Shown piece by piece: positions 2,827 through 44,358 of a stretch of 53,698 bases of DNA. The notes under the pieces are model-generated. The model was not told where the DNA came from. It was given only the letters and a program-made list of their open reading frames with translations, and did no database searches. The translations under genes and the position numbers were made by a program. Source of the DNA: Veillonellaceae bacterium. GTDB lineage: Bacteria; Bacillota; Negativicutes; Veillonellales; Negativicoccaceae. Every line of letters starts with the position of its first letter. The stretch's first letter is position 1. Where the stretch lies: contig JALELM010000017.1 in the NCBI GenBank assembly GCA_022771805.1, positions 1 to 53,698 of the forward strand. Direction: 5' to 3'.

Positions 2827-2832
2827 GCTGTT

Positions 2833-4169: not shown

Positions 4170-6332
4170 TTAGAAATTGTACTGCAACGAGACGCTGTAG
4201 TTTCGCTCGCGCGCCGCTTCGGTCGCATAGAACTGACGATCGAAGAGGTTGTATACGGCGCCTTGCAGAACGAGTCCGTCACGCAATTCATAGTTGACGG
4301 AGAGATTGGTGAGGAAGAACGCGTCTTCGGACTGGTATTCCCCGGTGTCGGTATCCGGAGACTGGCGCTCACTGACGTAGGTGTTGTCCACGAGAACTTG
4401 CCACGGTTTGGCATCGTAGCGAAGGCCGAAGTGGACGAGGTGACGGGGAATATAATAGTAACGCTTACCGTTGAGGTCGGCATCGGTGAAGGCGTAGTTG
4501 GCATATGCGGACCAGTTGTCCGTGAAGCGATACGAAGCACCGATTTCCGCGCCGCGACGAGCCATATCCCCGTCCGTGTTGTAATATGCCCGGACACCAT
4601 TGCGAGTTTGGAGACTGACCAAGTCTTTGGTTTTCGCATGGAACAGGGTAACATCCCAAGTGAGCTTGTTGTCGGCATGCTTGTAGCCGACTTCAAACGT
4701 ATTGGTAGTTTCCGGATTCAGATCCGGGTTTGCGTTGATCGTTGAGGATTTGCGATAGACTTGGTACAAGATCGGCGGATTGAAAGAATGTCCGTAGCTG
4801 GCGAAAACCGAATCGGTATCATTCAAGCGATGCTCGATGGCCAGCTTGGGGCTCACTTCGTGGTAGGTTCCCTCGCCGAAGCGATTGTCGGCGGTTACCA
4901 CGCCGTTTTTCAAGGAAATATTGTAACCGTCTTTTTTCGTGTACCGGTCATAGCGTATGCCCAGGTAGAGAGATGTGGCGTCATTCATCTCGTACTTGTC
5001 CTGTAAATAGAAGGCATGGAGGATGCCTTTACCGCCATTGTATTCATACGGCGAGCGGCCGGTGTCGATGTGGATATCCTGCCAGTGATCCAGATCGAAG
5101 CGAGTCTGGGCAAAGGATTCCCGCCGATAGTTGTACCCGGCAGTCAGCGTATGACGATTGAACTCCCATTTTTTATGCAGATCGAAATCGTATGATTTGC
5201 TCGGGTAGAAAGAATACCCTCCGGCGCCGTTCCAGGTATTCAGGCTGTCCGGAGTCGGATTTGCGGGCGAGGTATAGGGCGCGCTGTAGCCGTCTCTGTC
5301 GCGATTGGTATAGCCGAAATGGGCATAGATCTGGCGAGCCCGGTCGGCATACTGCAGCCGATGGATGAACATGCGATAGAAACCGTGGTAGCCGACGAAA
5401 TCACTCGGATCGACGGAAAGCACGGTCTTATCCGGCAGCTCCCAGACACCGCTGAAGACCGGATTGCCGTCCTTGTCATAGACAAGCGAAAACGGAGAAT
5501 GGTAGTCGTAGTTGTACTCGGTGCGCGTGAAGCGATAGTCCAAGCTGCGGTCGGCATCAAAATCATAACCGATACGCAAATTCCAAACTTCGGAATTATT
5601 GCGCTTCTCGCCGCGGCCACCGATGATATAGTAGTCCCGCGCGGATTGCGGCAGCGTGACTTGGTGTGTCGGTGTTAACGGTTTATTGGGATCTTGCTTC
5701 TTAAACCTTTTGTCGACATAGAAACCGCGGAAGCCGTCCGTGCTGCGTTTTTCGTAACCGATCCCGACACGCCAGCGGCCTTCATTGACATCCGTTTGCA
5801 GAGAAAAGCGTTTCGTGTTTTCGCTGCCGTAGGAAATCAGTGCCGTGCCGCTGAACGGTTCGGAGGATTTTTTAGTAATAATATTGATAACACCGCCGAC
5901 TGCGCGGCCGCCGTAGAGTGACGAGCCCGCGCCTTTTACCACTTCAATGCGCTCGATGCCGGTGGTCTGCAGTTCCGCCCAGTTCACCGTGCCGTTCCAG
6001 CCGGAGTTGAGCGGTTGACCGTCCATCATAACCAGAATTTCGGACGTGCCGAAGCCGCGCATTAAGAGGTCACTGCCTGCCCCATCGGCGATGGGAGAGC
6101 GATAGATGCCACTGGAATAGGCCAGCGTATCGGCCAGGTTTTGCACCGGTCGTTGGGACATCTCCTGCGCGGTGATCACTTCAACGGACGCCGGAACACG
6201 CTGCGTACTTTCTTCCAAGCGGGTCGCTGTAACGATCACTTCCCCCAAATCATACAGCGGCTCGGCTTGGACGATGCTGCCGATACCGGCGGTCGCTAAG
6301 ACAACCAGTGGAATTAGACGAGAAATTTTCAT
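4170..6332 (-). CDS. TonB-dependent outer-membrane receptor (BtuB/CirA-like)
   Basis: 720 aa from ATG 6332, chosen over an upstream GTG because AGGGGTG sits at the right distance. The signal peptide ends at about residue 23 (SIVQA). A TonB box follows (GEVIVTATR, about 30-38), then the plug domain with DLLMRGFGTSEILVMMDGQPL and ERIEVVKGAGSSLYGGRAVGGVINIITKK, and a barrel ending in LQYNF. It imports a scarce nutrient (iron chelate, haem or corrinoid) across the outer membrane using TonB-ExbBD energy; those genes are not in the window. Monocistronic with its own promoter (6377-6405) and terminator. The short type and plug motifs resemble BtuB/CirA more than the FpvA-like receptors at 33-38 kb. 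Confidence 0.92.
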   Translation of the reverse strand: MKISRLIPLVVLATAGIGSIVQAEPLYDLGEVIVTATRLEESTQRVPASVEVITAQEMSQRPVQNLADTLAYSSGIYRSPIADGAGSDLLMRGFGTSEILVMMDGQPLNSGWNGTVNWAELQTTGIERIEVVKGAGSSLYGGRAVGGVINIITKKSSEPFSGTALISYGSENTKRFSLQTDVNEGRWRVGIGYEKRSTDGFRGFYVDKRFKKQDPNKPLTPTHQVTLPQSARDYYIIGGRGEKRNNSEVWNLRIGYDFDADRSLDYRFTRTEYNYDYHSPFSLVYDKDGNPVFSGVWELPDKTVLSVDPSDFVGYHGFYRMFIHRLQYADRARQIYAHFGYTNRDRDGYSAPYTSPANPTPDSLNTWNGAGGYSFYPSKSYDFDLHKKWEFNRHTLTAGYNYRRESFAQTRFDLDHWQDIHIDTGRSPYEYNGGKGILHAFYLQDKYEMNDATSLYLGIRYDRYTKKDGYNISLKNGVVTADNRFGEGTYHEVSPKLAIEHRLNDTDSVFASYGHSFNPPILYQVYRKSSTINANPDLNPETTNTFEVGYKHADNKLTWDVTLFHAKTKDLVSLQTRNGVRAYYNTDGDMARRGAEIGASYRFTDNWSAYANYAFTDADLNGKRYYYIPRHLVHFGLRYDAKPWQVLVDNTYVSERQSPDTDTGEYQSEDAFFLTNLSVNYELRDGLVLQGAVYNLFDRQFYATEAARERNYSVSLQYNF

Positions 6333-6356
6333 GAAAACACCCCTCACATTATAAAA

Positions 6357-6373
6357 AGATAGATATAATTGAC
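6357..6373. promoter_or_regulatory. Possible Fur-like operator, weak
   Basis: AGATAGATATAATTGAC matches the core of the 33171 dyad at about 11 of 15 positions. It lies at the expected transcription start of the receptor ending at 4170. The match is weak and AT-rich. Confidence 0.25.
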
Positions 6374-6376
6374 TTA

Positions 6377-6405
6377 AGTATAACCGAAGGTGAACAATCG
6401 GTCAA
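6377..6405 (-). promoter_or_regulatory. Promoter of the receptor at 4170-6332
   Basis: On the - strand: TTGACC, a 17-base spacer, TATACT. An imperfect dyad TGAAC-AATC-GGTCA overlaps the -35 and could be a further operator. Confidence 0.8.
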
Positions 6406-6410
6406 ATGAA

Positions 6411-6432
6411 AAAAAGCCCCGAAGGGCTTTTT
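6411..6432 (-). terminator. Intrinsic terminator, usable in both directions
   Basis: AAAAAGCCC-CGAA-GGGCTTTTT lies between the promoter of one receptor and the end of the other (6446). The - strand reading ends the gene at 6446-8401; the symmetric A and T runs allow either direction. Confidence 0.88.
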
Positions 6433-6445
6433 ATTAAAACTCGTG

Positions 6446-8401
6446 TTAAAACTCGTATTGATAGGAAAGCAGGTAGTTGAACGGCGTGGCGCGGTAGAAC
6501 GTACCGGAATGGCTCAGGTTGTCGTTGCGATCGAGGACATTGTCGATGCGCAGCGCAATCGTGCTGTTGTCGTTCAGCCGATACTGCGTATTCCAGGTGG
6601 TCAGCAGGTACGGGCGCACATACGAAGAATGCGCACTGGAGGGAGAACCGACGCGATCGGCCAGGTAGCTCAGGGTGAAGTTGCTTATCCACGGGCCGTT
6701 TTGGTAGGTAGCGCCGCCGGTTACCTGCCAGCGACCGTATTGACGATCCCAATACGGCTTTTTGGCAATATCCCCGGTATCGCGGTTCCAGGGGTCGTTG
6801 TACGAGATGCCGAACCGATACGACCAATGATTATCGCCGCGATAGGACATCTCGGCTTCAATACCTTTATTCTTGAAGTCGGAATTGCCGTACTGGTAGT
6901 CCTTGATGTTTCCGAACTCATCGCGATTGACGTTGACCTTGATATTGTCGCTGATGTTCATCTTGTACACGGCAATTTTGTAGGCATGCTTGTCATGGAC
7001 TTTTTTATAACCGATTTCGTAGTTGATTCCGTGCTGCGGTTTCAAGCCCGGGTTCGGTTCGGAAAGACCGCCGCTACCGAACATTTGTGAAAATGTCGGC
7101 ATAATGAACGATTGGGAAATATTCAGGTACAGATTTTCCTGCGGATTGAGTTCATGGAGCCATTGGCCGGCGGCGGAGAAATTATGATAGTTCAAGCCGC
7201 CCGGCGCACCGCCCGTCCAAGTCTTCCGGCCGGAGAGGATGAGCGTATCTCTGTCGCTTGCTTTCGTATCCGCCTGCGCGTAGAGTGCGTAGATATTGCG
7301 TTCAAAAACATCATTCGGTGTATATACGGACTTATCAAAGGCTTCCCGCTGATACGTCAGGCCGTAGATCAAGGTCAATCTATCACTGACGATTTGTGTG
7401 CGTTGGATATCCAAACCGTAGTTTGTATTGATTTCATCCGAATCGTACGGTTTATTTGTGGGAACATAGCCCACGCCTTTTTGGGTTTTGAATACATCCC
7501 AACCGTGATTGCTGATATGGACACGATTGTAATAGGCTCGGGCAGTCCAGTCATCGTCGGCATAATTCAGCTGGTACATGCTTTGCCGTGTGCCGTAGCG
7601 CCGGTGTTGCTGTTCGTCGCCGTACTCGGCTATACCGGTGAGTTCCGGCGGCACTTGCTTAAACCAGTACAGGTAATCGCTTTCGGAGATGCGCCAGTCG
7701 TATTCAAAGCGCAGGTTGTCGCTGAGCTTGTAGCCGATATGAGCGGATTCTTTCAGTGTTCGCGGCGCATCGGCGCGGCGGTATTTGTCCATATCCTTCA
7801 GGTGAGCGACCATGCCCCATCTTTCACGATGGACGGCAACTTGGAGGCGATCCGTGCCCGCTTCGACATCATATAATTGTTGGCCGAAATTCCCGAAGCC
7901 GAGCCGGATGCTGTTGGAGGCACTGTCTTTCGTGATGATATTAATTACGCCGGCCATGGCTTCCGAGCCGTAGAGAACCGACCCCCCCCCTTTAATTACC
8001 TCGATCCGCTCGATGCGCTCGGCGGGGATCGAGTCGAGGAAGTACTTGCCGCGGGCGGAAACGGGATTCCCGTTTATCAGTACGAGGGTGCCGTTGCCGA
8101 TACCTCGCATGGCGATCTCGGTGCTCATGGTGCCCATGTGCCCGCCGCCGGGTCCAAACTGCTTAAAAGGAACGCCGGCAAGCGTAGACAGCGCCAGCTG
8201 CGCATTCGTCGCGCCGGATTCCTTCAGGTCTTCGGTGCTGATGGTGTCGGTCGACATCGGGATATCCACCTGCTCTTTGGCGGAACGGGTCGCCGTGACG
8301 ACAATCTCGTTCAGCAGGTACATATCGGCCGCCTGAACAAGATAGCCGCTGCCGCACAACGCAGCGGCAATACAAAGAGTTACATGCGAACGTTTCAACA
8401 T
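6446..8401 (-). CDS. TonB-dependent outer-membrane receptor with a G9 tract in its plug
   Basis: 651 aa. The Shine-Dalgarno AGGAGGG precedes ATG 8401. The signal peptide ends at about residue 24 (YLVQA), followed by a TonB box NEIVVTATR (about 31-39) and a plug domain with IAMRGIGNGTLVLINGNPVS and RIERIEVIKGGGSVLYGSEAMAGVINIITK. The barrel ends in YQYEF. The three glycines at residues 138-140 are encoded by nine consecutive G, a length prone to slippage. The frame is open as sequenced. Of the vitamin B12/catecholate receptor type; ligand unknown. It has its own promoter at 8452-8481, and the receptor at 4170 follows downstream as a separate unit. Confidence 0.92.
   Translation of the reverse strand: MLKRSHVTLCIAAALCGSGYLVQAADMYLLNEIVVTATRSAKEQVDIPMSTDTISTEDLKESGATNAQLALSTLAGVPFKQFGPGGGHMGTMSTEIAMRGIGNGTLVLINGNPVSARGKYFLDSIPAERIERIEVIKGGGSVLYGSEAMAGVINIITKDSASNSIRLGFGNFGQQLYDVEAGTDRLQVAVHRERWGMVAHLKDMDKYRRADAPRTLKESAHIGYKLSDNLRFEYDWRISESDYLYWFKQVPPELTGIAEYGDEQQHRRYGTRQSMYQLNYADDDWTARAYYNRVHISNHGWDVFKTQKGVGYVPTNKPYDSDEINTNYGLDIQRTQIVSDRLTLIYGLTYQREAFDKSVYTPNDVFERNIYALYAQADTKASDRDTLILSGRKTWTGGAPGGLNYHNFSAAGQWLHELNPQENLYLNISQSFIMPTFSQMFGSGGLSEPNPGLKPQHGINYEIGYKKVHDKHAYKIAVYKMNISDNIKVNVNRDEFGNIKDYQYGNSDFKNKGIEAEMSYRGDNHWSYRFGISYNDPWNRDTGDIAKKPYWDRQYGRWQVTGGATYQNGPWISNFTLSYLADRVGSPSSAHSSYVRPYLLTTWNTQYRLNDNSTIALRIDNVLDRNDNLSHSGTFYRATPFNYLLSYQYEF
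7982..7990 (-). repeat. Mononucleotide tract (G9 on the coding strand) inside a receptor gene
   Basis: Nine C on the + strand encode Gly-Gly-Gly in the receptor at 6446-8401. Gain or loss of one base would stop translation early in the plug domain. Confidence 0.9.
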
Positions 8402-23461: not shown

Positions 23462-23755
23462 CAATCAAGCAGAAATCGATGAACGGGAAGAGTAGTTTCG
23501 CAGCGAGCACTGCAGCGAGCCGATGACAGTGGGAGATCGGCGTGGGAGCGCGGAGTGAATGGACCCGGGAGATGCGACCCGAGCCGCCCAGCGGGGTAGG
23601 CGTCGACGGCAACTTCGGCCGATATCCCGAAGCGCGTATCGCCGCAAGGCCGTACGTCGGAGCGGATTGAATATTTCAATCAAGCGGGGTGGCACCGCGG
23701 AAGGTAACCTTTCGTCCCCATACTGTTGTGGTATGGACGGGACGAGAGGTTTTTT
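23462..23755 (+). promoter_or_regulatory. Tryptophan T-box riboswitch with terminator
   Basis: The T-box signature AGCGGGGTGGCACCGCGG is at 23683-23700. Stem I contains GCAGCGAGCC and GTGGGAG type motifs. The specifier region reads GAA-TGG-ACC, placing a UGG (Trp) codon at 23560-23562. The antiterminator TGGC is complementary to GCCA, as expected for a tRNA-Trp with G73. The terminator stem is 23708-23749 (CCTTTCGTCC... with ...GGACGAGAGG-like arm) plus T6. Uncharged tRNA-Trp would allow read-through into the transporter genes. Confidence 0.93.
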
Positions 23756-33121: not shown

Positions 33122-33150
33122 TTGACTTAACGGATAAAATTTATTATTCT
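33122..33150 (+). promoter_or_regulatory. Promoter of the twin-receptor operon
   Basis: TTGACT, 17-base spacer, TATTCT. The 5' leader to ATG 33324 is about 165 bases, unusually long for this window. Confidence 0.85.
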
Positions 33151-33160
33151 AGAGCTGACT

Positions 33161-33323
33161 GCGAAGATGTTAAATAGAAATGATTTCTATTTATAAACCC
33201 TTGATTACTTGCCATTTGCATTGATAATTTAAGAAGGGATGCCACCGACAGTGGAAACACGGACACACTGACGGCATCTTCGCAAGCAGGGAAATATTTT
33301 TTCAGCACAAAGGAGGAAGATGC
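33161..33323 (+). promoter_or_regulatory. Structured leader with competing pairings at the ribosome-binding site
   Basis: The strand GCATCTTC (33274-33281) can pair with three partners. CATCTTCGC (33275-33283) pairs with GCGAAGATG (33161-33169), 9 bp. GGCATC (33273-33278) pairs with GATGCC (33238-33243), closing an inner hairpin CAGTG...CACTG. GCATCTTC itself pairs with GAAGATGC (33316-33323), 8 bp directly against the AUG and touching the Shine-Dalgarno AAAGGAGG. These helices exclude one another, the arrangement expected of a translational switch. No known riboswitch consensus was recognised. Confidence 0.5.
33171..33193. promoter_or_regulatory. Perfect 23-bp dyad, probable Fur-type operator
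   Basis: TAAATAGAAAT and its exact reverse complement flank a central G (11-1-11). It lies about 20 bases after the -10, so a bound repressor would block elongation or initiation. It partly overlaps the leader pairing strand at 33161-33169. Related imperfect sites occur at 663 and 8436 near other receptor promoters. Confidence 0.72.
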
Positions 33324-35519
33324 ATGAAAAAAATGTTGGTGTATGCGGTACTGGCCTGGTGTGCCATGCCGGCGGTGTATGCGATGCAGGGAGACGTGGT
33401 CACGCTGGATCCCGTATTCGTATCGGCGACGCGGGATGTACGAGCCGGCGGCTATGTGCATACCACATCGCGGGTCGGGGTATTGGGAACGGCGGATGTG
33501 ATGAATGTCCCGTTTACGCAGGTCAGCGTGACGGAAAAAGCGATCACGGATTTCGGAACGCCGGCGCTGCCGTTGCAACAGGTATTGGTGAATAACCCGG
33601 CAGTACGGCAGTCGAGCTCGTCGCCGATGTATTCCGATTTTTCGTTGCGGGGCATCAATATGAACGGTACGCATATGTACTTCAACGGCGTGCCGAGCCT
33701 GTTCTCGCAATTCCGCACGGCGCCGAACCACATGGTGAAACGACTGGACCTTTCGGTGGGAGCGGCGACCGTATTGAACGGTACGCAGGCCTCCTCGAAC
33801 GGAACTAATAGCGGCAGGACTGCGGCGCCCGGGATGATCAACGCCATTTCCAAACGCGCGACGGACACTCCGATTCGCTCCCTTACGCTGAACTACACAA
33901 CGGACAAGAATATCGGTACATATATCGATATCGGTGAGCGTATGGGTGATGAGAATGAGTGGGGCGTCCGCCTGACCGCCGGCTGGTTGGACGGGAAACT
34001 GGCCTTGCAGCATTCCGGCAAGACGGAAAAAACGATCGGCATAAACATTGATCATCGCGGCGATACAAATCGGACGAACTTCTTTGCGGGTCATATTGAT
34101 TTGCGGGTAGACGGTTCACAGCGGTGGTTTACATTTGATGGGAAAGTTATGCCGAAAGTACCTAACCATAAAATGGCCTACGATTTTCCGGAAGAAACCA
34201 AGTGGGCACATTGGTGGGTGACAACGCTTAATCACGAGCAGGATATCACGCCGGCGTGGACTGCATTTGTCAATGCGGGCGCGGCTACTTGGAGCGGCTA
34301 CAAGTACAATAACAATGCAAACCTGAAATTTGATGAGGACGGAAAATTTGTTGCCAGCAACATGGTCAACCTGATGAATGAAAAAGCCGTCAATAACTAT
34401 GTACAGGCAGGCGTTCGCGGGGAGTTCCAAACGGGCGAGATCGAGCATAAGGTAGTCATTGCATACGATAAATCATACATGGCATACTGGACATCCAGCT
34501 TTAATTTCAAAAACGACGCCTCGCATAATCACGGGATAGGATTTATCGGCGGTGATCTCTACAACGGTATTCAGTTCTTGGAAGGCTACTATCCGTTGCC
34601 GACCGGATCAACACGTGCGTTGAGCTATAAAGAATACAACGACTCGCTTGTCATCAACGACATGATGAGAATCGGAGATTTTGATGTTTTGCTCGGTTGG
34701 TCGCATCGCAAAGCGGACTATCGTGCGGCGACGGCAAAGGGCGAGCATTTCAAGACAACGGACAATTTACCCGCATATGGTCTTGTCTATCATCCGAATG
34801 AACGGACATCGCTCTATGCGAGCTATGCGAAAAATATCTCCCGCGGCCGTCAGGTGACGGACACAAAATATGACAACTTCGGTGAAGTATTACCTCCGGT
34901 AAAACAAGCCATCAAAGAAGTCGGCGTTAAATATGACGGCGGGAACTGGCTGGCGACCTTGGCGTACTTCAGCGTAAACGACGGCAATACGGTGGATGTC
35001 TATACGCGTACGGTACAAGAGAACAAAAACGGCGAACTGATCAACGTGAAAAAGTACAGTCAGAAACAAGACGGTGAAAATGAATTCAAAGGGTTCGAGT
35101 TCACCATCAATGGTAAGGTCAACGATCGTTTGACAGCTACCGGCGGTTTCCTCAAAATGGATGCGGAACGCAAACGCACCAAAGACGGTGCGCGTGACGG
35201 TTGGTATGTACATGGTGTAGCGGATTTCTCGGCAGTACTCGGACTGACCTACAAAGCAACAGACAATATGGATCTTATCGGTCGAGTAATGTACAACAGC
35301 AGCGCGAAGGTAAATGACAATGGAGCGACCTTGCCCGGCTACACGACCTTTGATTTCGGGGCGAACTGGCATACTCAATTCGGAGAACATCCGGTAGAGT
35401 TGCACGCCATGGTTTACAACGTATTCGATAAAAGCTACTGGCAAGGGCGCGGCGGTTCTACCACATTCGGACTTTCGTGGCCGCGTACATTTGTGGTGTC
35501 GGCAAAAATCAATTTCTAA
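33324..35519 (+). CDS. TonB-dependent receptor, siderophore/metallophore type (FpvA-like)
   Basis: 731 aa; AAAGGAGG precedes ATG 33324. Signal peptide of about 20 residues (ends PAVYA). TonB-box-like VTLDPVFVSATR. The plug has SDFSLRGINMNGTHMYFNGVPSLFSQF and KRLDLSVGAATVLNGTQ; the barrel ends AKINF. The PGMINAISKRA segment and N-terminal YVHTTSRVGVLGTADVMNVPFTQ are shared with the next receptor and with the pseudogene at 707, defining one subfamily. First gene of the twin-receptor operon, under the promoter, dyad and leader described above. Transports a metal chelate or similar ligand across the outer membrane with TonB; ligand unknown. Confidence 0.93.
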   Translation: MKKMLVYAVLAWCAMPAVYAMQGDVVTLDPVFVSATRDVRAGGYVHTTSRVGVLGTADVMNVPFTQVSVTEKAITDFGTPALPLQQVLVNNPAVRQSSSSPMYSDFSLRGINMNGTHMYFNGVPSLFSQFRTAPNHMVKRLDLSVGAATVLNGTQASSNGTNSGRTAAPGMINAISKRATDTPIRSLTLNYTTDKNIGTYIDIGERMGDENEWGVRLTAGWLDGKLALQHSGKTEKTIGINIDHRGDTNRTNFFAGHIDLRVDGSQRWFTFDGKVMPKVPNHKMAYDFPEETKWAHWWVTTLNHEQDITPAWTAFVNAGAATWSGYKYNNNANLKFDEDGKFVASNMVNLMNEKAVNNYVQAGVRGEFQTGEIEHKVVIAYDKSYMAYWTSSFNFKNDASHNHGIGFIGGDLYNGIQFLEGYYPLPTGSTRALSYKEYNDSLVINDMMRIGDFDVLLGWSHRKADYRAATAKGEHFKTTDNLPAYGLVYHPNERTSLYASYAKNISRGRQVTDTKYDNFGEVLPPVKQAIKEVGVKYDGGNWLATLAYFSVNDGNTVDVYTRTVQENKNGELINVKKYSQKQDGENEFKGFEFTINGKVNDRLTATGGFLKMDAERKRTKDGARDGWYVHGVADFSAVLGLTYKATDNMDLIGRVMYNSSAKVNDNGATLPGYTTFDFGANWHTQFGEHPVELHAMVYNVFDKSYWQGRGGSTTFGLSWPRTFVVSAKINF

Positions 35520-35538
35520 GGGAACAGGAGTATAGACT

Positions 35539-37728
35539 ATGAAGAAACAATTATTACTGGCTGCACTGGCAGTAGCCTGCGGCATGCAGACCAACTGGGC
35601 CGCTATGCAAGCGGAACCGATGTACAGCTTGGAAGGCGTCATAGTAACCGATGTGCGGGATGTGGGGATTTTGCCCGGCGGTTATGCGGACTTAAACAGC
35701 ACGGTCGGTATCTTGGGCGACACCAATGTTATGAAAGTGCCGTTTTCGCAGATGAACTATACATCAAAGTTGATGGAAACATTTGGTGCATCGGGTCAGC
35801 CGATTGATACGGTATTGCGGACCAATCCCTCCATTCGTTCGTCCGGCTCGGTTTGGCACAGCGATTTCACCATTCGCGGAATTCGATCCAACGGTACATC
35901 GATGTTTTTGAACGGAATTCCGGGGATGTTCACGCAATTCCAGCTGCCGACACACTTTACGGATCGGGTGGAAGTAACATCGGGTCCGGCAGGCGGGTTT
36001 ATGGCAACGGGGACACAATATGAATCGAACGCCGGCGGCGGAATCGTGAACTTTGTTTCGAAGCGTGCTCCCGGTGAAGATGTTCGCCGCCTGACCGTTC
36101 AACACATCGGTCGCGGGCACTGGGCAAATTATCTTGATTTGTCGCATCGTTTCGGCGAGGATCAAGAGTGGGGCGTGCGAATCAATACGGAATGGGTCAA
36201 CGGCGAGATGTCGGTAAAAAATGAAAACTACAAGGCATCCAGCATCTATGTCAATGTGGACCGGCAGACGGAGAATTCAACGACGAATTTCCTGGCCGGC
36301 TATCGCGACATGAAGCTTACAAACGGGCATCGGTGGTTTAAGCTCAGCAAAGATTATGAAGCACAGTTCCCGGCCGGACAGACACCCACTTTGTTGAAAC
36401 CTCCGGCGGGCGACAGTGATCTGAGTTTCCCGGGAAATGAGAAATGGACATTAGGGTATATCTTTGCCTTAAATCATGACCAGAAGCTGAATGATAAAGT
36501 GACGGTATTTTTGAATGCCGGAACAAATCACAATAACTTGTCTCGAAACGTTTCCGGCTGGGCCAGCGCATTTGAAATTGATGACACGGCAGGAAACTAT
36601 AAAATCCGAATTATGGACGGGTTGAACCGCATGGATTCCTCGTATCTCGGCGTTGGCGTACGAGCCGATGTTAAAACGGGAGCGGTTAAACATAATCTCG
36701 TATTCCTGCATGACCATAGTTGGCGAAATCGTGGCGGCACATGGCCGGGATCTACCCCGTATACGAAAGACACACCTCCGGTAGGACAAGGGAACATCTA
36801 TAATGGGATCATCAGCTTTAATCCTTTGGAGTCCAATCCGAAGGAAATGAAAACGGCCACACAGCGGATGTGGGGCTTCTCTCTTGTCGATCGGATGGAA
36901 ATTGGTCAATGGCAAGTCATGTTGGGGGGGCACTACCATAAGGCGACGACGACGAGCATATCGAAAGGGAAATACACACAAAGTGTAACAACAGACGGTT
37001 GGAGTCCTACGTTTGGTTTGGTGTACAGCCTGAATGATAACTCCTCTGTTTACGGGAGTTATTCGGAGTACTTTAATGAAGGTGAAATCGTCGGCTCGTC
37101 TTATCAAAATGCCGGCCAAGTATTTGCTCCGATTAAAACCAAACAGATTGAGTTTGGCGGAAAGTACTATAAGGACGGTTTGCTGCTCACCGCAGCGTAT
37201 TTTGACATCAAGATGCCGGAGAAACGCTTTGAACGGTTGGTGGGCGATTCGGCAAATACGCAGTTTATGGACGGCGAGCAACGCATGAAGGGTGTGGAAT
37301 TTGGTGTACAGGGGAAACTGACGGACAAGCTGAGCGCGTTTGGCGGCGTGACCTACATGGATGCCAAGTTCACCAAAAATACAGCGAAGGAACTAAACGG
37401 AAAGCGGCTGTTTGCGCAGCCGTACTGGTCCGGATCCATGGGGCTGTCCTACCAGCCGAGCGATCGTACCAACGCGTTCATTCGCGCCAATTATACAGGA
37501 GACAGCATTATTCGCACACAGGGGGCAAAGCGAGAAATTATCGTTCCGTCCTACTGGGTGTGGGATATCGGCGTACGTCACTCGTTGTTTATTGGCGGCC
37601 AAAAGGCGACACTGGGAGTGACCGTGTACAATTTGTTCGACAAGGATTACTGGATGGCTTCTCGTGGTGATCAGGTATATGCTTCGTTGCCGCGCACGTT
37701 GATGTTGTCTGCACAATGGGATTTCTGA
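35539..37728 (+). CDS. TonB-dependent receptor, siderophore/metallophore type, paralogue
   Basis: 729 aa, 19 bases after the previous receptor with AGGAG upstream of ATG 35539. Signal peptide MKKQLLLAALAVACGMQ.... N-terminal GGYADLNSTVGILGDTNVMKVPFSQ, plug SDFTIRGIRSNGTSMFLNGIPG and DRVEVTSGPAGGFMATG; barrel ends SAQWDF. Clear paralogue of the first receptor by layout and shared motifs but diverged in the barrel, so ligands may differ. A G7 tract (36924-36930) lies in the barrel coding sequence. Ended by a weak terminator that may let transcription reach the ABC genes. Confidence 0.93.
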   Translation: MKKQLLLAALAVACGMQTNWAAMQAEPMYSLEGVIVTDVRDVGILPGGYADLNSTVGILGDTNVMKVPFSQMNYTSKLMETFGASGQPIDTVLRTNPSIRSSGSVWHSDFTIRGIRSNGTSMFLNGIPGMFTQFQLPTHFTDRVEVTSGPAGGFMATGTQYESNAGGGIVNFVSKRAPGEDVRRLTVQHIGRGHWANYLDLSHRFGEDQEWGVRINTEWVNGEMSVKNENYKASSIYVNVDRQTENSTTNFLAGYRDMKLTNGHRWFKLSKDYEAQFPAGQTPTLLKPPAGDSDLSFPGNEKWTLGYIFALNHDQKLNDKVTVFLNAGTNHNNLSRNVSGWASAFEIDDTAGNYKIRIMDGLNRMDSSYLGVGVRADVKTGAVKHNLVFLHDHSWRNRGGTWPGSTPYTKDTPPVGQGNIYNGIISFNPLESNPKEMKTATQRMWGFSLVDRMEIGQWQVMLGGHYHKATTTSISKGKYTQSVTTDGWSPTFGLVYSLNDNSSVYGSYSEYFNEGEIVGSSYQNAGQVFAPIKTKQIEFGGKYYKDGLLLTAAYFDIKMPEKRFERLVGDSANTQFMDGEQRMKGVEFGVQGKLTDKLSAFGGVTYMDAKFTKNTAKELNGKRLFAQPYWSGSMGLSYQPSDRTNAFIRANYTGDSIIRTQGAKREIIVPSYWVWDIGVRHSLFIGGQKATLGVTVYNLFDKDYWMASRGDQVYASLPRTLMLSAQWDF
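36924..36930 (+). repeat. G7 mononucleotide tract inside a receptor gene
   Basis: Seven G encode part of Leu-Gly-Gly in the second receptor. Shorter than the G9 at 7982 but still a possible slippage site. Confidence 0.85.
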
Positions 37729-37737
37729 TTTTCAAAA

Positions 37738-37770
37738 CAAATAGCCGTGCAGTTTAGCACGGCTATTTGT
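37738..37770 (+). terminator. Weak intrinsic terminator or attenuator between receptors and ABC genes
   Basis: AATAGCCGTGC-AGTTTA-GCACGGCTATT forms an 11-bp stem but only TTTG follows. No separate promoter is visible before 37788, so partial read-through is likely and would set a lower level for the ABC genes. Confidence 0.7.
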
Positions 37771-37787
37771 ACTATGAAAGGAAGTAC

Positions 37788-39362
37788 ATGATGAAGTATC
37801 GAATTTCGCAATGGCTGCTGCGCTTGGTGCTTGTTTGCTTTGCGCTGGTCGGCTGTATCGGCTTGGCGGGCTGCGGCGGTCCGGCTACCGGCGGCGACAA
37901 TGAAATCGTTCTTGCGGCGGCGCGGGACTTGGCGCCGGGGAAGAAAGACCCGTATTTTACAAGCTCAATTCTGCAGGTATGGGAGCCTCTGATCGCGCTG
38001 GCGGATGACGGCCGCCCGACGGAGGCGTTGGCCGTTTCGTGGGAAGCATCCGAAGATGCTCGTGTATGGACCTTTTCTTTGCGGCAGAATGTAACATTTC
38101 ATGACGGCGAGCCGTTTAATGCGGCTGCGGTGGTGGCGAATTTCAATCGTTGGAAGGTGATGGGCTATCGCACGTCTCCGTTTTATGGTACGTCATTGGA
38201 AAAAATGTATCCCTCGCTTCTGAAATGGGAAGCAGTGGACGAATACACCTTGCGCCTGACGTTTGCAGATTCTATGCCGACATTGCCCTACTTGATGGCT
38301 TCCTGGAATTCCGCGATGTTCAGCCCGAAGTGTCTGGATGCGGTGACGGGAGATTTCATCGGCTTTGCACAGGGGACGGGGCCGTTTCGCGTTGTGGAAG
38401 CGGTGCCGCAGCAGTATACCGTGCTGGAACGTTTTGATGAGTATTGGGGCGACAAGGCAAAAGCAAAACGCATCCGCGTACGGGTGATACCGACGCCGGA
38501 GACGCGTTTTTCCGCTTTGAAGTCCGGTGAAATAATGGGCGTGGTGGATCTGGGCGCGCTGACGCCGGCGTTGGCGAAGGAGTTGACGAAGGATCCGCAA
38601 TTCGCGCTGATTTCGAATAAGATGACGATTTCGCATTATTTGACCGTGCGCGGCGATGCGGGCGTTTTCTCTGATGAGCGGATGAAACGGGCACTGTCGC
38701 TCGTTATCGATCGGGATGCTTTGGCACAGCAGTATTTCTACGGCTATGCCGTGCCGACGGAAAACATCATCAATAGTGTGAGCCCGTTCGGTCGGCTGGT
38801 GAAGCCGAAGTATGATCCGGCGGAAGCGGCTCGCTTGGCAAAGGAAGTACTGGGAGACAAGCGGGTACAGGTGAAGTTCGTGATTCCGCAGTACGGCACG
38901 GATCGCTATCCGTACAAAGAAGTGTCCGAATGGATTCAGGCGGAGCTGGCGAGCATCGGTGTGGATGCACAGCTGTTGATACTCGATGGAGCCGCTTTGA
39001 AAAAAGCGCAGCGTGACGGCGAGTATGATATCAGCATTCATACTCGAGGTCTGGGAACGATGGATCCGGCGCGGTTGCTGACGGAATGGATGTCCGCCGA
39101 TGAGCGAGGGACGATCAATATAGAAAACCATATCGGTTTTGCAAATGCGGAGGCGCAGAGCCTGCTGGATGCTATCCCGGCGGCGACAACGGAAGAAGCG
39201 CGGCGAGCGATTTACACGCGCTTGCAGGATATTGCGCTGGAACATCCGGTGGTCATCCCTCTGTTTGAAGACAGCAATTTGCTCGTGCACAACAAGAAGA
39301 TTCGCGGCTTTTTGCCGACGATTTACGGTGTAACGCTCGCCGAAACGGAATGGGCGGAGTAA
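37788..39362 (+). CDS. Peptide/nickel-type ABC substrate-binding lipoprotein 1
   Basis: 524 aa; AAAGGA precedes two adjacent ATG (37788, 37791). The signal peptide ends in lipobox LAGC. SBP family 5 features: EIVLAAARDLAPG, WEASEDARVWTFSLRQNVTFHDGEPFNA, GTGPFRVVEA, DEYWGDKAKAKRIRVRVIPTPETRFSALKSGEI, and late PVVIPLFEDSNLLVHNKKI. Homologues include NikA, CntA, DppA and OppA. Paired with a paralogue immediately downstream. The receptors upstream suggest a metal complex, but peptide binding cannot be excluded. Confidence 0.92.
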   Translation: MMKYRISQWLLRLVLVCFALVGCIGLAGCGGPATGGDNEIVLAAARDLAPGKKDPYFTSSILQVWEPLIALADDGRPTEALAVSWEASEDARVWTFSLRQNVTFHDGEPFNAAAVVANFNRWKVMGYRTSPFYGTSLEKMYPSLLKWEAVDEYTLRLTFADSMPTLPYLMASWNSAMFSPKCLDAVTGDFIGFAQGTGPFRVVEAVPQQYTVLERFDEYWGDKAKAKRIRVRVIPTPETRFSALKSGEIMGVVDLGALTPALAKELTKDPQFALISNKMTISHYLTVRGDAGVFSDERMKRALSLVIDRDALAQQYFYGYAVPTENIINSVSPFGRLVKPKYDPAEAARLAKEVLGDKRVQVKFVIPQYGTDRYPYKEVSEWIQAELASIGVDAQLLILDGAALKKAQRDGEYDISIHTRGLGTMDPARLLTEWMSADERGTINIENHIGFANAEAQSLLDAIPAATTEEARRAIYTRLQDIALEHPVVIPLFEDSNLLVHNKKIRGFLPTIYGVTLAETEWAE

Positions 39363-39368
39363 ACGAAG

Positions 39369-40919
39369 ATGCGGATGAAAACGTGGCGGATCTGGGGACT
39401 GCTCCTTTGTCTGCTCGTCATGTTGGCGGGATGTGCAGATGTGGCGCGACCGTCCGGAGATGATGAGATCGTTTTGGCGGCGGCACGTGATTTGGCACCG
39501 GGGCCGCACGATGCGTTTTATTGCAGTTCCGTTTTGGAGGTCTGGGAGCCTTTGGTCGACGCGGATGCAGACGGGCAGCCGAAGCCGGTATTGGCTACAA
39601 GTTGGGAAATGAGCGATGATGCCCGCGTCTGGATTTTTCATTTGCGCGAAGGAGTGCGTTTTCATGACGGTACACCGTTTAATGCACAGAGCGTAATGAA
39701 GAATTTTGAGCGTATTGCACAGGGATTTCGTACATCGCAGTTTTATTACATGTCCTTGGATCTTATGTATCCGGGGCTGCTCACTTGGCAGGCATTGGAT
39801 GAGTATACGGTGCAGTTGACTTTTGACAGGGCGATGCCTCAGCTGCCGTACCTGATGGCGGGCTGGAACAGTGCGCAGTTCAGTCCGCAGAGTTTTGATG
39901 CGCAGGGACAATTTGTCACAATCGCTATCGGTACGGGCCCGTTTCGTTTGCAAGAGGTTCGGTTGGGATCGCACGTCTTGCTGGCTAATAATGAAGATTA
40001 TTGGGGAACTCGCGCCAAGGCATCACGGATTCGCGTGCGAGTAATCCCGACGGCAGAAACCCGTTTTTCGGCGCTGAAGGCGGAAGAGATTATGGGCGTG
40101 CTCGACCTCGGTGGATTGACGCCGGCGCTGGCGACAGAGCTGGTAAAGGATAGTCGTTTTGAACTGGAAGCGCATAAGATGACGATCAGCCATTATCTTT
40201 TTTTACAAGGTGAGAACGGTGTGTTTTCCGATTGGCGATTGCGACAAGCAGTGAGCTTGGGAGTAGATCGCAAGGCTTTAGCTCGACAGTATTTTTATGG
40301 GTATGCGGTGCCGACCGGGAATCTGATTAACAGCACGAGTCCGTTCGGCCGTGTACAAGAACCGATACATGATCCGGAGAAAGCTGAAAAGTTGGCGCAC
40401 GATGCTCTGGGAGAAAGGCGTGTGTCGGTACGCTTTTTGCTTTCGCAGCAAGGGACGGAGCGATATCCGTACAAGGAGATGGCGGAATGGATCCAAGCTG
40501 AGCTGCAACCTCTCGGTCTGGACTTGGACATTATTATTCTGGATAGTGCGGCAGCTACGCAGGAAATTCGTCGCGGTAATTATGATATGACGCTGGGAAT
40601 TCGAGGACTTTCCAGTATGGATCCGGAGGATTTGTTTTGGGAGTGGCTCAGTTCGGGTGAGCGCGGCACGGCGAATCATGGGCGGCATTTCGGATATAGC
40701 TCTGCGAAGGCGGATGCCTTGTTGTCGGAATTGGCTACGAGCTCAAGCGAGACGGAACGACAAGCTGTTTATGACGAACTGCAGGTTTTGGCGCAGGAAT
40801 ATGCGGCGGTCATTCCGTTGTTTGAGGACACAAATATTTTGGTGCATAATAAAAAAATTCGCGGGTATCGACCGCGGATTTATGGAGTGACGCTGTCGGA
40901 AACGGAATGGGTGCGATGA
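39369..40919 (+). CDS. Peptide/nickel-type ABC substrate-binding lipoprotein 2
   Basis: 516 aa, seven bases after the previous stop with a weak Shine-Dalgarno. Lipobox LAGC (LLCLLVMLAGCAD). Paralogue of the first: same DDEIVLAAARDLAPG start, LREGVRFHDGTPFNAQSV, VRVIPTAETRFSALKAEEIMG and HNKKIRGYRPRIYGVTLSETEW end. Two tandem binding proteins feeding one permease suggest two related ligands, matching the two receptors. The stop overlaps the permease start. Confidence 0.92.
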   Translation: MRMKTWRIWGLLLCLLVMLAGCADVARPSGDDEIVLAAARDLAPGPHDAFYCSSVLEVWEPLVDADADGQPKPVLATSWEMSDDARVWIFHLREGVRFHDGTPFNAQSVMKNFERIAQGFRTSQFYYMSLDLMYPGLLTWQALDEYTVQLTFDRAMPQLPYLMAGWNSAQFSPQSFDAQGQFVTIAIGTGPFRLQEVRLGSHVLLANNEDYWGTRAKASRIRVRVIPTAETRFSALKAEEIMGVLDLGGLTPALATELVKDSRFELEAHKMTISHYLFLQGENGVFSDWRLRQAVSLGVDRKALARQYFYGYAVPTGNLINSTSPFGRVQEPIHDPEKAEKLAHDALGERRVSVRFLLSQQGTERYPYKEMAEWIQAELQPLGLDLDIIILDSAAATQEIRRGNYDMTLGIRGLSSMDPEDLFWEWLSSGERGTANHGRHFGYSSAKADALLSELATSSSETERQAVYDELQVLAQEYAAVIPLFEDTNILVHNKKIRGYRPRIYGVTLSETEWVR

Positions 40920-41863
40920 AATTTTTGCATTTTCTGGGAGAACGTGTATTGCTGGCCGTACCGATCCTGTTCGGGGTCTCGTTATTGGCGTTCTTATTGG
41001 GCGTGATTGCGCCGAGCGACCCTGCCTTGGTGCTGCTGACTTTGGACGGCACCGGTGAGCCGAGTGCGGCGGAACTGGCGGCGATGCGGATCCGGCTGGG
41101 GCTGGATAAGCCGTATATCGTGCAGTTTATTGTTTGGCTGAAGCAGGTGTTGCAAGGCGATCTCGGTGCGTCCTACATTACGGGCGTGCCGGTTGTGCAA
41201 TTATTGGCGACTCGCCTGCCCGTTACGTTTTCGGTTTCCGTTTTGAGTCTGGTCTGGGTGCTGGCATTGGCCTTGCCAGCGGGGATTTATGCGGCGGTTC
41301 GGGCGGATCGGTGGCAGGATCGGCTGTTGCGCGGTGTGGCGATGCTGGTTTCGGCGGCGCCCGGGTTTTGGCTGGCGATTATGCTGATTCACCTGTTTGC
41401 GGAGCGCTGGCGGTTGTTGCCGACGAGCGGGTACGGTACTTGGCAGCAGCTGGTTTTGCCGAGTTTTGTTTTGGCGGTAGGGACGATGGCTGCGATGCTG
41501 CGTTTGCAGCGCTCATCCTTGCTGGAAGCATTTCAAGAGCATTTTGTTTTTTCCGCGCGTTCGCAGGGCTTGCCGGTTCGGCGTATTTTGTGGCGGCATG
41601 CGGTGCCGAACTCATGGCTTCCGGTCGTGACATTCATCGGGACCTATGCGGTCGGTATTCTCGGCGGCTCGGTAGTGGTAGAATCCATTTTTTCTCTGCC
41701 CGGGCTCGGATCGCTCGTGTTGTCGGCTATTCGCGGGCGTGATTATCCGGTTATCCAAGGGTATGTATTGGCGGTGGGTATGATGGTGGTCTGGATCAAC
41801 TTGTTGGTCGACATCAGTTATTTCTTCCTGAATCCGCGCTTGCGAGGAGGGGATAAATCGTGA
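40916..41863 (+). CDS. ABC permease, NikB/DppB type
   Basis: 315 aa from ATG 40916 (ATGA overlap). About six membrane segments. N-terminal ERVLLAVPILFGVSLLAFLLG, RLGLDKPYIVQFIVWLKQVLQGDLGAS, and the coupling motif region RSQGLPVRRILWRHAVPN (EAA loop). Standard first permease of Opp/Nik-type importers, partner of the next gene. Confidence 0.95.
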   Translation: MKFLHFLGERVLLAVPILFGVSLLAFLLGVIAPSDPALVLLTLDGTGEPSAAELAAMRIRLGLDKPYIVQFIVWLKQVLQGDLGASYITGVPVVQLLATRLPVTFSVSVLSLVWVLALALPAGIYAAVRADRWQDRLLRGVAMLVSAAPGFWLAIMLIHLFAERWRLLPTSGYGTWQQLVLPSFVLAVGTMAAMLRLQRSSLLEAFQEHFVFSARSQGLPVRRILWRHAVPNSWLPVVTFIGTYAVGILGGSVVVESIFSLPGLGSLVLSAIRGRDYPVIQGYVLAVGMMVVWINLLVDISYFFLNPRLRGGDKS

Positions 41864-42696
41864 GATCCGGACAAGTGACACCACTGTTTATCGGGACCGG
41901 TGTGATGCTGGCGGTGTTTCTGGCGGTGGCGATTTTTGCTCCGCAGCTGGCACCGCATCCGCCGGATCTTGTCCAGCGGCAGGCGATCTTGGCGCCGATG
42001 TCTGCGGAGCATTGGCTGGGGACGGACGCTCTCGGGCGTGATGTGTGGAGCCGGTTGCTTTATGGTGCGCGCGTATCCGTCTTTTTCGCTATAGCGGGCG
42101 CGGCGAGTACGATGCTGTTGGGCGCACTGCTCGGAATCCTGGGCGGTTATTTCGGCGGCATTACGGATCGTGCGGTGCAGATTGCGGTGCACGTCTTCCA
42201 AGGCCTGCCGGGGATGAGCCTGATGATCGCCATTGCCGGCGTCCTCGGGCCGGGAACATTCAGTATTCTGTTGGCGGTTACGTTGACCTCCTGGACCGGG
42301 TTTTCGCGCCTGGTGCGGGCGGAAGTATTGCGTGTGCGCTATGCGGATTATGTGGCTTCGGCGCGGGCGTTGGGCGGAAGTCATTTGTATATTTTGCGTA
42401 AGTACATCATTCCCAATATTTTGCCGACACTCGTGGTGCTTTGGACGGTGCGTATCGGGACGGTATTGCTCTCTGTCGCGTCGCTCAGCTTTCTCGGGCT
42501 CGGCGTGCAGCCGCCGCAGGCGGATTGGGGCGTGATGGTTTTCGACGCGATGACTTATTTTCGGTCGTATCCCTGGCTTTTATTGGCACCGGGGGTCTGT
42601 ATTGCATTGTTTTCGATTTGCATTCAGTTGTGGGGAGATGAGTTGCGGCATCTTGTCACCACGGAGCGCCAAGCGGCCGGAGAGGACGGAAGATGA
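41860..42696 (+). CDS. ABC permease, NikC/DppC type
   Basis: 278 aa starting at GTG 41860, with GAGGAGGGG upstream and overlap with the preceding stop. FAPQLAPHPPDLVQRQAILAPM, HWLGTDALGRDVWSRLLYGARVS and EAA loop YVASARALGGSHLYILRKYIIPN are typical of the second permease of the family. Confidence 0.95.
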   Translation: MRSGQVTPLFIGTGVMLAVFLAVAIFAPQLAPHPPDLVQRQAILAPMSAEHWLGTDALGRDVWSRLLYGARVSVFFAIAGAASTMLLGALLGILGGYFGGITDRAVQIAVHVFQGLPGMSLMIAIAGVLGPGTFSILLAVTLTSWTGFSRLVRAEVLRVRYADYVASARALGGSHLYILRKYIIPNILPTLVVLWTVRIGTVLLSVASLSFLGLGVQPPQADWGVMVFDAMTYFRSYPWLLLAPGVCIALFSICIQLWGDELRHLVTTERQAAGEDGR

Positions 42697-43508
42697 CGGA
42701 CGGAATTGAAGTAGTCGATGTGAGCGTAACGTTTCAGCTGCCGCAGGAAGATATCGTTGCCGTGGACGGGGCTCGGCTCTTGTGCCGCGAGGGAGAAATT
42801 ACCGGCCTGATCGGTGAAAGCGGCAGCGGTAAGTCCGTGCTCGGACAGGCGATGCTGGGGCTTTTACCGGATAATGCGACGGTCTCGGGACATATTTTTT
42901 ATGGCGGCCGTAATCTCGCGGCGTTGAGCGAAGAAGAACAGCAGCGGTTGCGCGGGAAAGAAATCGGCTTCATTCCGCAGAACCCGGAGGCCGCATTCGA
43001 CCCGTTGCTTACCGTGGGTAAGCAGATCGGTGAAGCGTTGCGGGTGGAAGGATATTCGGCGGAGGAAGCACGCAGGGCGGTAGTATTGCGCTTGGCGGAA
43101 TTGGGCTTTGCCGAGCCGGAACGGATCGCGGACAGTTACTCGTTTGAGCTCTCAGGCGGGATGTGCCAACGTGCTCTTTGCGTTTGGGGGACGATTCGCT
43201 CGCCGCGCTGGTTGATTGCGGATGAACCGACCAAAGGATTGGATGCCTTGATCCGGTTGGATGCGTTGCGCATTTTTCGCCGTTTGCATCAGGAAGGCAC
43301 GAGTATTCTTCTGATCACGCATGATTTGCAGCTGGCCAAGCATCTCTGCACGCGTGTTGCGGTCATGCGTAACGGGCGTATCGTGGAGGAAGGAACGACG
43401 GCCGCGATATTCGATGACCCGCAGGAAGAATACACGAAGACCTTGCTGGCGGCACGACCGCAGGAGATTTTGCGCCGGAAAAAGGAGGCTTTCGAATGGA
43501 ACGATTAG
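42693..43508 (+). CDS. ABC ATPase, NikD/DppD type
   Basis: 271 aa. Walker A GESGSGKS, Q-loop FIPQNPEAAFDP, signature LSGGM, Walker B LIADEPTKGLD, switch His in LITHD. Pairs with the following ATPase. Unlike many OppD/DppD proteins it stops soon after the nucleotide-binding domain, without the long Cys-rich C-terminal extension. Confidence 0.95.
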   Translation: MTDGIEVVDVSVTFQLPQEDIVAVDGARLLCREGEITGLIGESGSGKSVLGQAMLGLLPDNATVSGHIFYGGRNLAALSEEEQQRLRGKEIGFIPQNPEAAFDPLLTVGKQIGEALRVEGYSAEEARRAVVLRLAELGFAEPERIADSYSFELSGGMCQRALCVWGTIRSPRWLIADEPTKGLDALIRLDALRIFRRLHQEGTSILLITHDLQLAKHLCTRVAVMRNGRIVEEGTTAAIFDDPQEEYTKTLLAARPQEILRRKKEAFEWND

Positions 43509-44272
43509 TCGTGGAAGCTGTAAATAAATCGTTTTCGGCGGGCTTCTTCCGAAGTGATCGGCGCACGGTGCTCCGGGATATCTCCTTTTCGCTGGCGCCG
43601 GGGAAAACACTCGGGCTGGTCGGCATGAGCGGCTCCGGCAAGTCGACACTTGCGAGAATGCTCACGGGGCTCATTCGGCCGGATAGCGGGCGGATCCTCT
43701 TCGAAGGAAATGAGTTGACAGGACTGAAGCGGCAGGAGCGGCGAAAGTATGCGCGAGACTTGCAAATGCTGTTCCAGCATCCCACTTCGGCACTGAATCC
43801 GCGCTTTACCCTGCAAGAGTGTATGTACGAGCCGCTGCATTTGCATCCCGGCGTTGTACAGCGGGAGCAGTGGGAGGCGGAAATTCGAAAGCAGTTGGAT
43901 TTTGTCGCGTTGGCACCGAGCTTGCTCGTTCGCTATCCGCATGAACTGAGCGGCGGCCAACTGCAACGATTTTGTCTCGCCCGTTTGTTGCTGCTGCGTC
44001 CCAAACTCATCGTGTTGGATGAGCCGACGTCCATGCTGGATGTTTCCGTGCAGGCGGTGGTCATGGATGAGCTGATGAAGGCGCAACGTGAATGGGGAAT
44101 TTCGTATATTTTCATTTCGCACGATTTGGATCTCGTGCGGGCGTACAGTGACGAGATCGCCGTGATGCATGAAGGACAGCTTTTGGAAAGGCAAACGACG
44201 GAAGATCTGTACCGCCAACCGCAACAGGATTATACACGCCGTCTGATTGCGGCTTTTTCCGAATTGGAGTAA
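43496..44272 (+). CDS. ABC ATPase, NikE/DppF type
   Basis: 258 aa, overlapping the previous gene by 13 bases. Walker A GMSGSGKS, Q-loop MLFQHPTSALNPRF, signature LSGGQ, Walker B LIVLDEPTSMLDVSVQ, switch His in FISHD. Completes the importer. Followed by the terminator at 44331-44358. Confidence 0.95.
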   Translation: MERLVVEAVNKSFSAGFFRSDRRTVLRDISFSLAPGKTLGLVGMSGSGKSTLARMLTGLIRPDSGRILFEGNELTGLKRQERRKYARDLQMLFQHPTSALNPRFTLQECMYEPLHLHPGVVQREQWEAEIRKQLDFVALAPSLLVRYPHELSGGQLQRFCLARLLLLRPKLIVLDEPTSMLDVSVQAVVMDELMKAQREWGISYIFISHDLDLVRAYSDEIAVMHEGQLLERQTTEDLYRQPQQDYTRRLIAAFSELE

Positions 44273-44330
44273 ATCGTATCCGGCGTTTTCGAGGGTTATT
44301 TGCGAAAGACGATGCTTGAGGAGACGGGAT

Positions 44331-44358
44331 AAAAAGATGCCGAAAGGCATCTTTTTTT
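44331..44358 (+). terminator. Intrinsic terminator after the ABC importer
   Basis: AAAAAGATGCC-GAAA-GGCATCTTTTT followed by further T. Confidence 0.93.

Follow-up and report, generated by a model that had tools for sequence, protein, structure and literature searches.

Introduction

In the NikABCDE importer of E. coli a binding protein, two permeases and two ATPases are encoded in this order, with NikR adjacent and no linked TonB receptor. The Cnt systems for staphylopine and pseudopaline use the Opp-type pump CntABCDF for metal-opine complexes together with the TonB receptor CntO, and the acinetobactin receptor BauA works with a Fec-type pump. Methanobactin, a metal-peptide chelate, is taken up by the TonB receptor MbnT and the OppA-related periplasmic binding protein MbnE (PMC7558416); there the inner-membrane step is open and the genes are part of chelator-making clusters. 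In cable bacteria a TonB receptor is located directly upstream of a Nik/Opp/Dpp operon, which was suggested to encode a nickel importer (PMC11247825), and in Veillonella parvula nine TonB systems have been noted, whose ligands were not identified (PMC5491611).

The locus described here is part of a stretch of 53,698 nucleotides (the window) and encodes two TonB-dependent receptors (TBDR1 and TBDR2), two solute-binding proteins (SBP1 and SBP2) and one Opp/Nik-type permease-ATPase set. It shares gene order and protein families with NikABCDE but differs in its linked receptors, the NikA-E cut-offs are not reached and the NikA pocket residues are mostly replaced. In joining a receptor to an OppA-related binding protein it resembles MbnT and MbnE, but no chelator-making genes were seen beside the import operon. 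BauA and the mycobactin receptor FemA are the closest solved relatives of both receptors, whereas the pump is of the Opp/Nik type and not of the Fec type used by BauA. The cable-bacteria operon, compared here by its layout, also has its receptor immediately before a binding protein and pump of the Nik/Opp/Dpp family, but a single receptor was reported and nickel suggested (PMC11247825). The original prediction knew of no described system in Negativicutes with exactly two receptors, two binding proteins, two permeases and two ATPases; this exact layout was indeed not found in the open-licence literature, but its core is known in cable bacteria (PMC11247825). In view of the cable-bacteria and methanobactin precedents we regard the layout as a variation on a known arrangement. 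New are its spread and conservation in Negativicutes, an ancient receptor pair, a family-specific second binding protein and a methyltransferase partner.

Organization of the Import Operon

Eight co-directional open reading frames were called at 33324-44272 (+), and all eight proteins passed the curated Pfam cut-offs with the expected domains (Table 1). The eight genes predicted originally were all recovered at their places as a tightly packed single unit, with coordinates deviating solely by alternative start codons of SBP1 and the first permease. The receptor genes are separated by 20 bp, TBDR2 and SBP1 by about 60 bp and the SBP genes by 6 bp, followed by overlapping genes, and the gaps all appear too small to suggest an internal promoter. 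SBP_bac_5, BPD_transp_1 and ABC_tran domains are arranged in the SBP-B-C-D-F order of the Opp/Dpp/Nik importer superfamily within one operon; in several relatives both ATPases are read as a single fused open reading frame. The unit is closed by a strong intrinsic terminator, and the gene that follows it at 44485 encodes a type II/IV secretion ATPase and is separate from the operon.

Table 1. Features of the import operon; positions refer to the window.
Feature	Position	Strand	Evidence and remarks
Promoter-like site TTGACT-17-TATTCT	33122..33150	+	Weak consensus match, 9/12; alone no evidence
Perfect 11-1-11 palindrome TAAATAGAAATGATTTCTATTTA, candidate operator	33171..33193	.	0/300 shuffles of the intergenic region
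TBDR1, TonB-dependent receptor, 731 aa, BauA/FemA-like	33324..35519	+	Pfam Plug and TonB barrel
TBDR2, TonB-dependent receptor, 729 aa, BauA/FemA-like	35539..37728	+	Pfam Plug and TonB barrel
SBP1, family-5 solute-binding lipoprotein, more conserved copy	37788 or 37791..39362	+	LAGC lipobox; SBP_bac_5 256 bits
SBP2, family-5 solute-binding lipoprotein, faster-evolving copy	39369..40919	+	LAGC lipobox; SBP_bac_5 252 bits
OppB/NikB-type permease, likely start 40916	40907..41863	+	BPD_transp_1; best NCBIfam Opp2B 332 bits, cut-off 350
OppC/NikC-type permease	41860..42696	+	BPD_transp_1; best NCBIfam Opp1C 253 bits, cut-off 350
OppD/NikD-type ATPase	42693..43508	+	ABC_tran; best NCBIfam NikD 210 bits, cut-off 319
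OppF/NikE-type ATPase	43496..44272	+	ABC_tran; best NCBIfam NikE 244 bits, cut-off 333
Intrinsic terminator GATGCC-GAAA-GGCATC-T7	44336..44358	+	-17.4 kcal/mol, z = -5.3, T run

The palindrome upstream of TBDR1 is probably an operator, and its AATnATT core would resemble boxes of the Fur superfamily. A genome scan for a shared operator yielded near matches at C6:702 and C12:90187, which are inside coding sequence and include the one next to another receptor, and at C12:80455, which is not beside a receptor, and for this reason we claim no regulon; the palindrome seems to be private to the import operon. A common operator upstream of the orthologous operons was looked for and none was found, and neither the palindrome scan nor the ortholog upstream regions revealed a metal-regulator site for the operon. 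In two relatives a MerR-type regulator gene, which is a candidate regulator, is divergent from operon and methyltransferase (L020 14460-15290, L021 14199-15023).

The source genome (G000; 1.44 Mb, 20 contigs, 95% complete) contains just SBP1 and SBP2 as SBP_bac_5 genes, and no further importer of the Opp/Dpp/Nik type that includes a binding protein was therefore detected besides the operon; this and the other gene absences reported here come from single family searches, and incomplete draft genomes may hide genes. In line with TonB-driven transport, both receptors carry plug and barrel domains and the genome encodes ExbD, the energy component searched for. It has 16 TonB-receptor plug domains, a high number for a 1.44 Mb genome. 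Two more TonB receptors are located side by side in the window at 4173-8401 (-), and a third receptor type, 31 kb off the operon at 748-2829 (+), is interrupted by one in-frame stop (2425-2427) and is followed by a Fec-type binding protein at 2833. Relatives of this third type adjoin the import operon in G001, G103 and G209. The window also contains a T-box leader above the Rfam gathering score (23470-23722, +).

Conservation in Negativicutes

We searched 300 genomes sampled throughout Negativicutes with a model of the SBPs (E below 1e-80) and found orthologs in 25, which represent 16 of 97 genera and eight families. A TonB receptor is encoded directly upstream and in the same direction in 21 of the 24 loci read; in L031 the methyltransferase discussed below is inserted between the co-directional upstream receptor and the pump genes, which brings the count to 22, the receptor of L030 is divergent and L037 has no receptor at the locus. 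Receptors and pump therefore belong together, and the conserved linkage is strong evidence that they form a functional unit. Three other Opp-type operons in the same genome set (L016, L017 and L018) have no receptor, which indicates that the link between receptor and pump is specific to this operon. Conserved co-occurrence had been suggested as a check; receptors and pump keep their order and orientation at 22 of 24 loci in eight families, and this class-wide synteny backs the proposal of one trans-envelope import operon in which several receptors share one inner-membrane pump. That receptors and Opp pump are two unrelated systems that are merely adjacent is highly improbable and, as far as synteny allows, refuted by the same conservation.

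The exact layout with two copies of each component occurs in two of the 300 genomes, G000 and G001, of which G001 is the closest genome to G000 that carries the same operon. The first permease gene of G010 is truncated near the contig start (L014 1-1462) beside a gene that by eye is transposase-like, and the operon may therefore be broken there. Matches of the SBP on Klebsiella plasmids (29% identity) had no annotated receptor adjacent in the stretch read.

Receptors and Binding Proteins Were Duplicated at Different Times

TBDR1 and TBDR2 are 31% identical. In the receptor tree the operon receptors form one distinct TonB-dependent clade (support 100/100), in which 11 rows from five families make up a TBDR1 clade (100/100) and 22 rows a TBDR2 clade (97/95). 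As these sister clades extend across Negativicutes families, the receptor pair is old; a single binding protein accompanies it in most genomes that encode both receptors. TBDR1 is apparently decayed or split in G082 (L022 5200-5568) and G188 (L021 10858-13034), as if this receptor were dispensable in some lineages, or as a result of assembly errors.

The history of the binding proteins is different. SBP1 and SBP2 share 58% identity, and the value for SBP1 and the corresponding protein of G001 is 75%. The SBP tree joins SBP1 with this protein (98/98), SBP2 with the neighbouring G001 protein (97/97) and all four with moderate support (81/85), and the branch of SBP2 is longer than that of SBP1 (0.56 vs. 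0.18). From the grouping of the four proteins it follows that the duplication most likely arose within the source family before the two genera split; among the 300 Negativicutes genomes the twin-SBP layout is confined to G000 and G001. A parallel duplication of receptors and binding proteins, as assumed originally, is thus contradicted by an ancient, class-wide receptor pair and a recent SBP pair of one family, and one receptor per binding protein is consequently not implied.

Ligand of the Importer

The best PDB matches of TBDR1 are BauA-type entries (5e-56 to 1e-55) and FemA (7e-49), and TBDR2 matches BauA with 1.5e-53. For the siderophore receptor model TIGR01783 (cut-off 223.5 bits) TBDR2 scored 250 and TBDR1 184 bits. 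The nearest solved relatives of both proteins, at distant similarity, are ferric-siderophore receptors, and a siderophore-type chelate would be the leading candidate for the ligand class. As a caveat, the cargo of family-5 binding proteins also includes peptides and heme, among others. Within this family SBP1 and SBP2 come closest to the nickel, opine, heme and dipeptide members with no equivalog cut-off reached, and the closest solved structures include NikA of Brucella and E. coli. With four sequences as input, AlphaFold gave an SBP1 model of poor quality (pLDDT 54, pTM 0.42).

In one alternative the TonB receptors and a Nik/Cnt-type pump would import a nickel or cobalt metallophore, as proposed originally, or a zinc metallophore. 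The best NCBIfam matches of the SBPs and pump subunits are indeed mostly nickel-type models, the NikA structures mentioned above are among the closest, the cable-bacteria operon with its upstream TonB receptor was proposed for nickel (PMC11247825), and G000 contains one protein of the LarA-type lactate racemase family, a nickel enzyme family. But no nickel or opine cut-off was reached: the scores for the NikA-E equivalogs, given with their cut-offs, were 191/393 for the SBP, 283/447 (B), 248/358 (C), 210/319 (D) and 244/333 bits (E), the cut-offs of CntA and CntC/D/F were likewise not reached, and the SBP scored 152 bits vs. 800 for CntA. Furthermore, NikA proteins are discriminated by a majority of Arg97, Arg137, Tyr402 and His416 (PMC2667541), and a NikA complex shows His416 as the axial ligand of nickel (PMC11091072). 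In an alignment of the 25 orthologs to E. coli NikA (K-12 gene), in which single columns may be off due to the low identity, position 97 is R or K in 24 of 25, position 137 is F, W or Y in all 25, Trp398 is replaced by G, Tyr402 is present in 4 of 25 and position 416 is never His. The discriminating residues are thus mostly lost, and no majority of them was found across the 25 orthologs (PMC2667541). Family searches of G000 and G001 detected no NiFe hydrogenase, G001 also gave no LarA-type protein, and a staphylopine/CntM-type opine dehydrogenase (PF10100) was above cut-off in none of the 25 operon genomes, which together with the missed cut-offs also separates the operon from Cnt. Taking missed cut-offs, lost pocket residues and absent enzymes together, nickel is possible but not favoured, and we consider this ligand rather unlikely. 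Of the original idea of metallophore or nickel uptake, a metal chelate is plausible from the BauA/FemA-like receptors, but nickel and an opine metallophore are disfavoured by cut-offs, pocket and enzymes.

An importer of heme or another tetrapyrrole with a Dpp/HbpA-like binding protein is quite improbable. HbpA and DppA are among the solved relatives of SBP2, and pairs of nitrogenase-component-1-like genes, which elsewhere cluster with CobN-size proteins, directly follow the operon in two genera (L020 109-2861, L035 1158-3871). But the receptors score like siderophore receptors and far under the TonB-hemin cut-off (TBDR2 45 bits, cut-off 317), the nitrogenase-like neighbourhood is limited to one family, and G000 has separate clusters of TonB receptor, Fec-type and CobN-size genes that resemble tetrapyrrole systems. 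In one such cluster (L040, G000:C6:38000-57900) genes for a TonB receptor, NifH-, NifD- and NifK-like proteins, a CobN-size protein (about 1250 aa) and a Fec-type permease and ATPase are arranged in one direction; similar clusters are present in many Negativicutes and possibly handle tetrapyrroles. Nitrogenase-like genes occur in 23 of 25 operon genomes and in 145 of the 275 others, a link that we set aside because these genes follow phylogeny and because their adjacency to the operon is limited to two genera, both from the same family.

A class I SAM-methyltransferase gene is located beside the operon in G001, G010, G146, G188 and G108, which represent four genera. A model seeded by these five members had matches in 7 of 300 genomes, each of which belongs to the 25 with the operon. 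Two of these matches are independent of the seed, namely the one in G189 and a remote copy in G000, and their restriction to operon carriers would have a chance of ~0.4% if random and with shared ancestry ignored. In G189 the gene is the last one after a TonB receptor, a Fec-type binding protein, a permease and an ATPase, a run assigned by similarity to other loci and by eye. As it thus ends a usual metal-chelate layout, it supports a chelate as ligand, and the enzyme probably acts on the imported compound.

This also bears on a non-metal cargo such as a modified peptide or another natural product. Peptides or similar molecules are the cargo of many family-5 SBPs and Opp-type pumps, and the aromatic residue at the position of NikA Arg137 in all 25 orthologs would fit a larger, partly hydrophobic ligand. 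However, the characterised TonB receptors closest to TBDR1 and TBDR2 transport metal chelates, and the methyltransferase is also the last gene of a Fec-type operon, which makes such a cargo improbable.

Proposed Function and Implications

We consider it probable, if by no means secure, that the operon serves to import metal chelates by means of two receptors, a duplicated SBP and an inner pump of the Opp/Nik type. The locus would then form one transcription unit for a complete trans-envelope importer. Both receptors would bind metal in chelated form, most likely as siderophore-type complexes (ferric or similar) from other microbes, and admit the chelates into the periplasm on TonB-ExbBD energy, where the lipid-anchored family-5 SBPs would catch them and the single permease-ATPase set would pump them to the cytoplasm. 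The SBP duplication in the source family probably created two periplasmic carriers with different affinity or ligand range and a common pump, and the SAM-dependent methyltransferase of several relatives probably acts on the imported compound in the cytoplasm. That the chelate is an undescribed metallophore, for which two receptors and, in the source family, two SBPs combine on one pump and the methyltransferase modifies the chelator in the cytoplasm and so releases the metal or retires the ligand, is a bolder and tentative version of this proposal, which we consider unlikely.

Negativicutes are diderm Firmicutes, and their metal uptake has been little studied. The operon joins both membrane steps of import, and the contrast between carriers with one and with two SBPs, together with the methyltransferase, makes the ligand and the division of labour testable.
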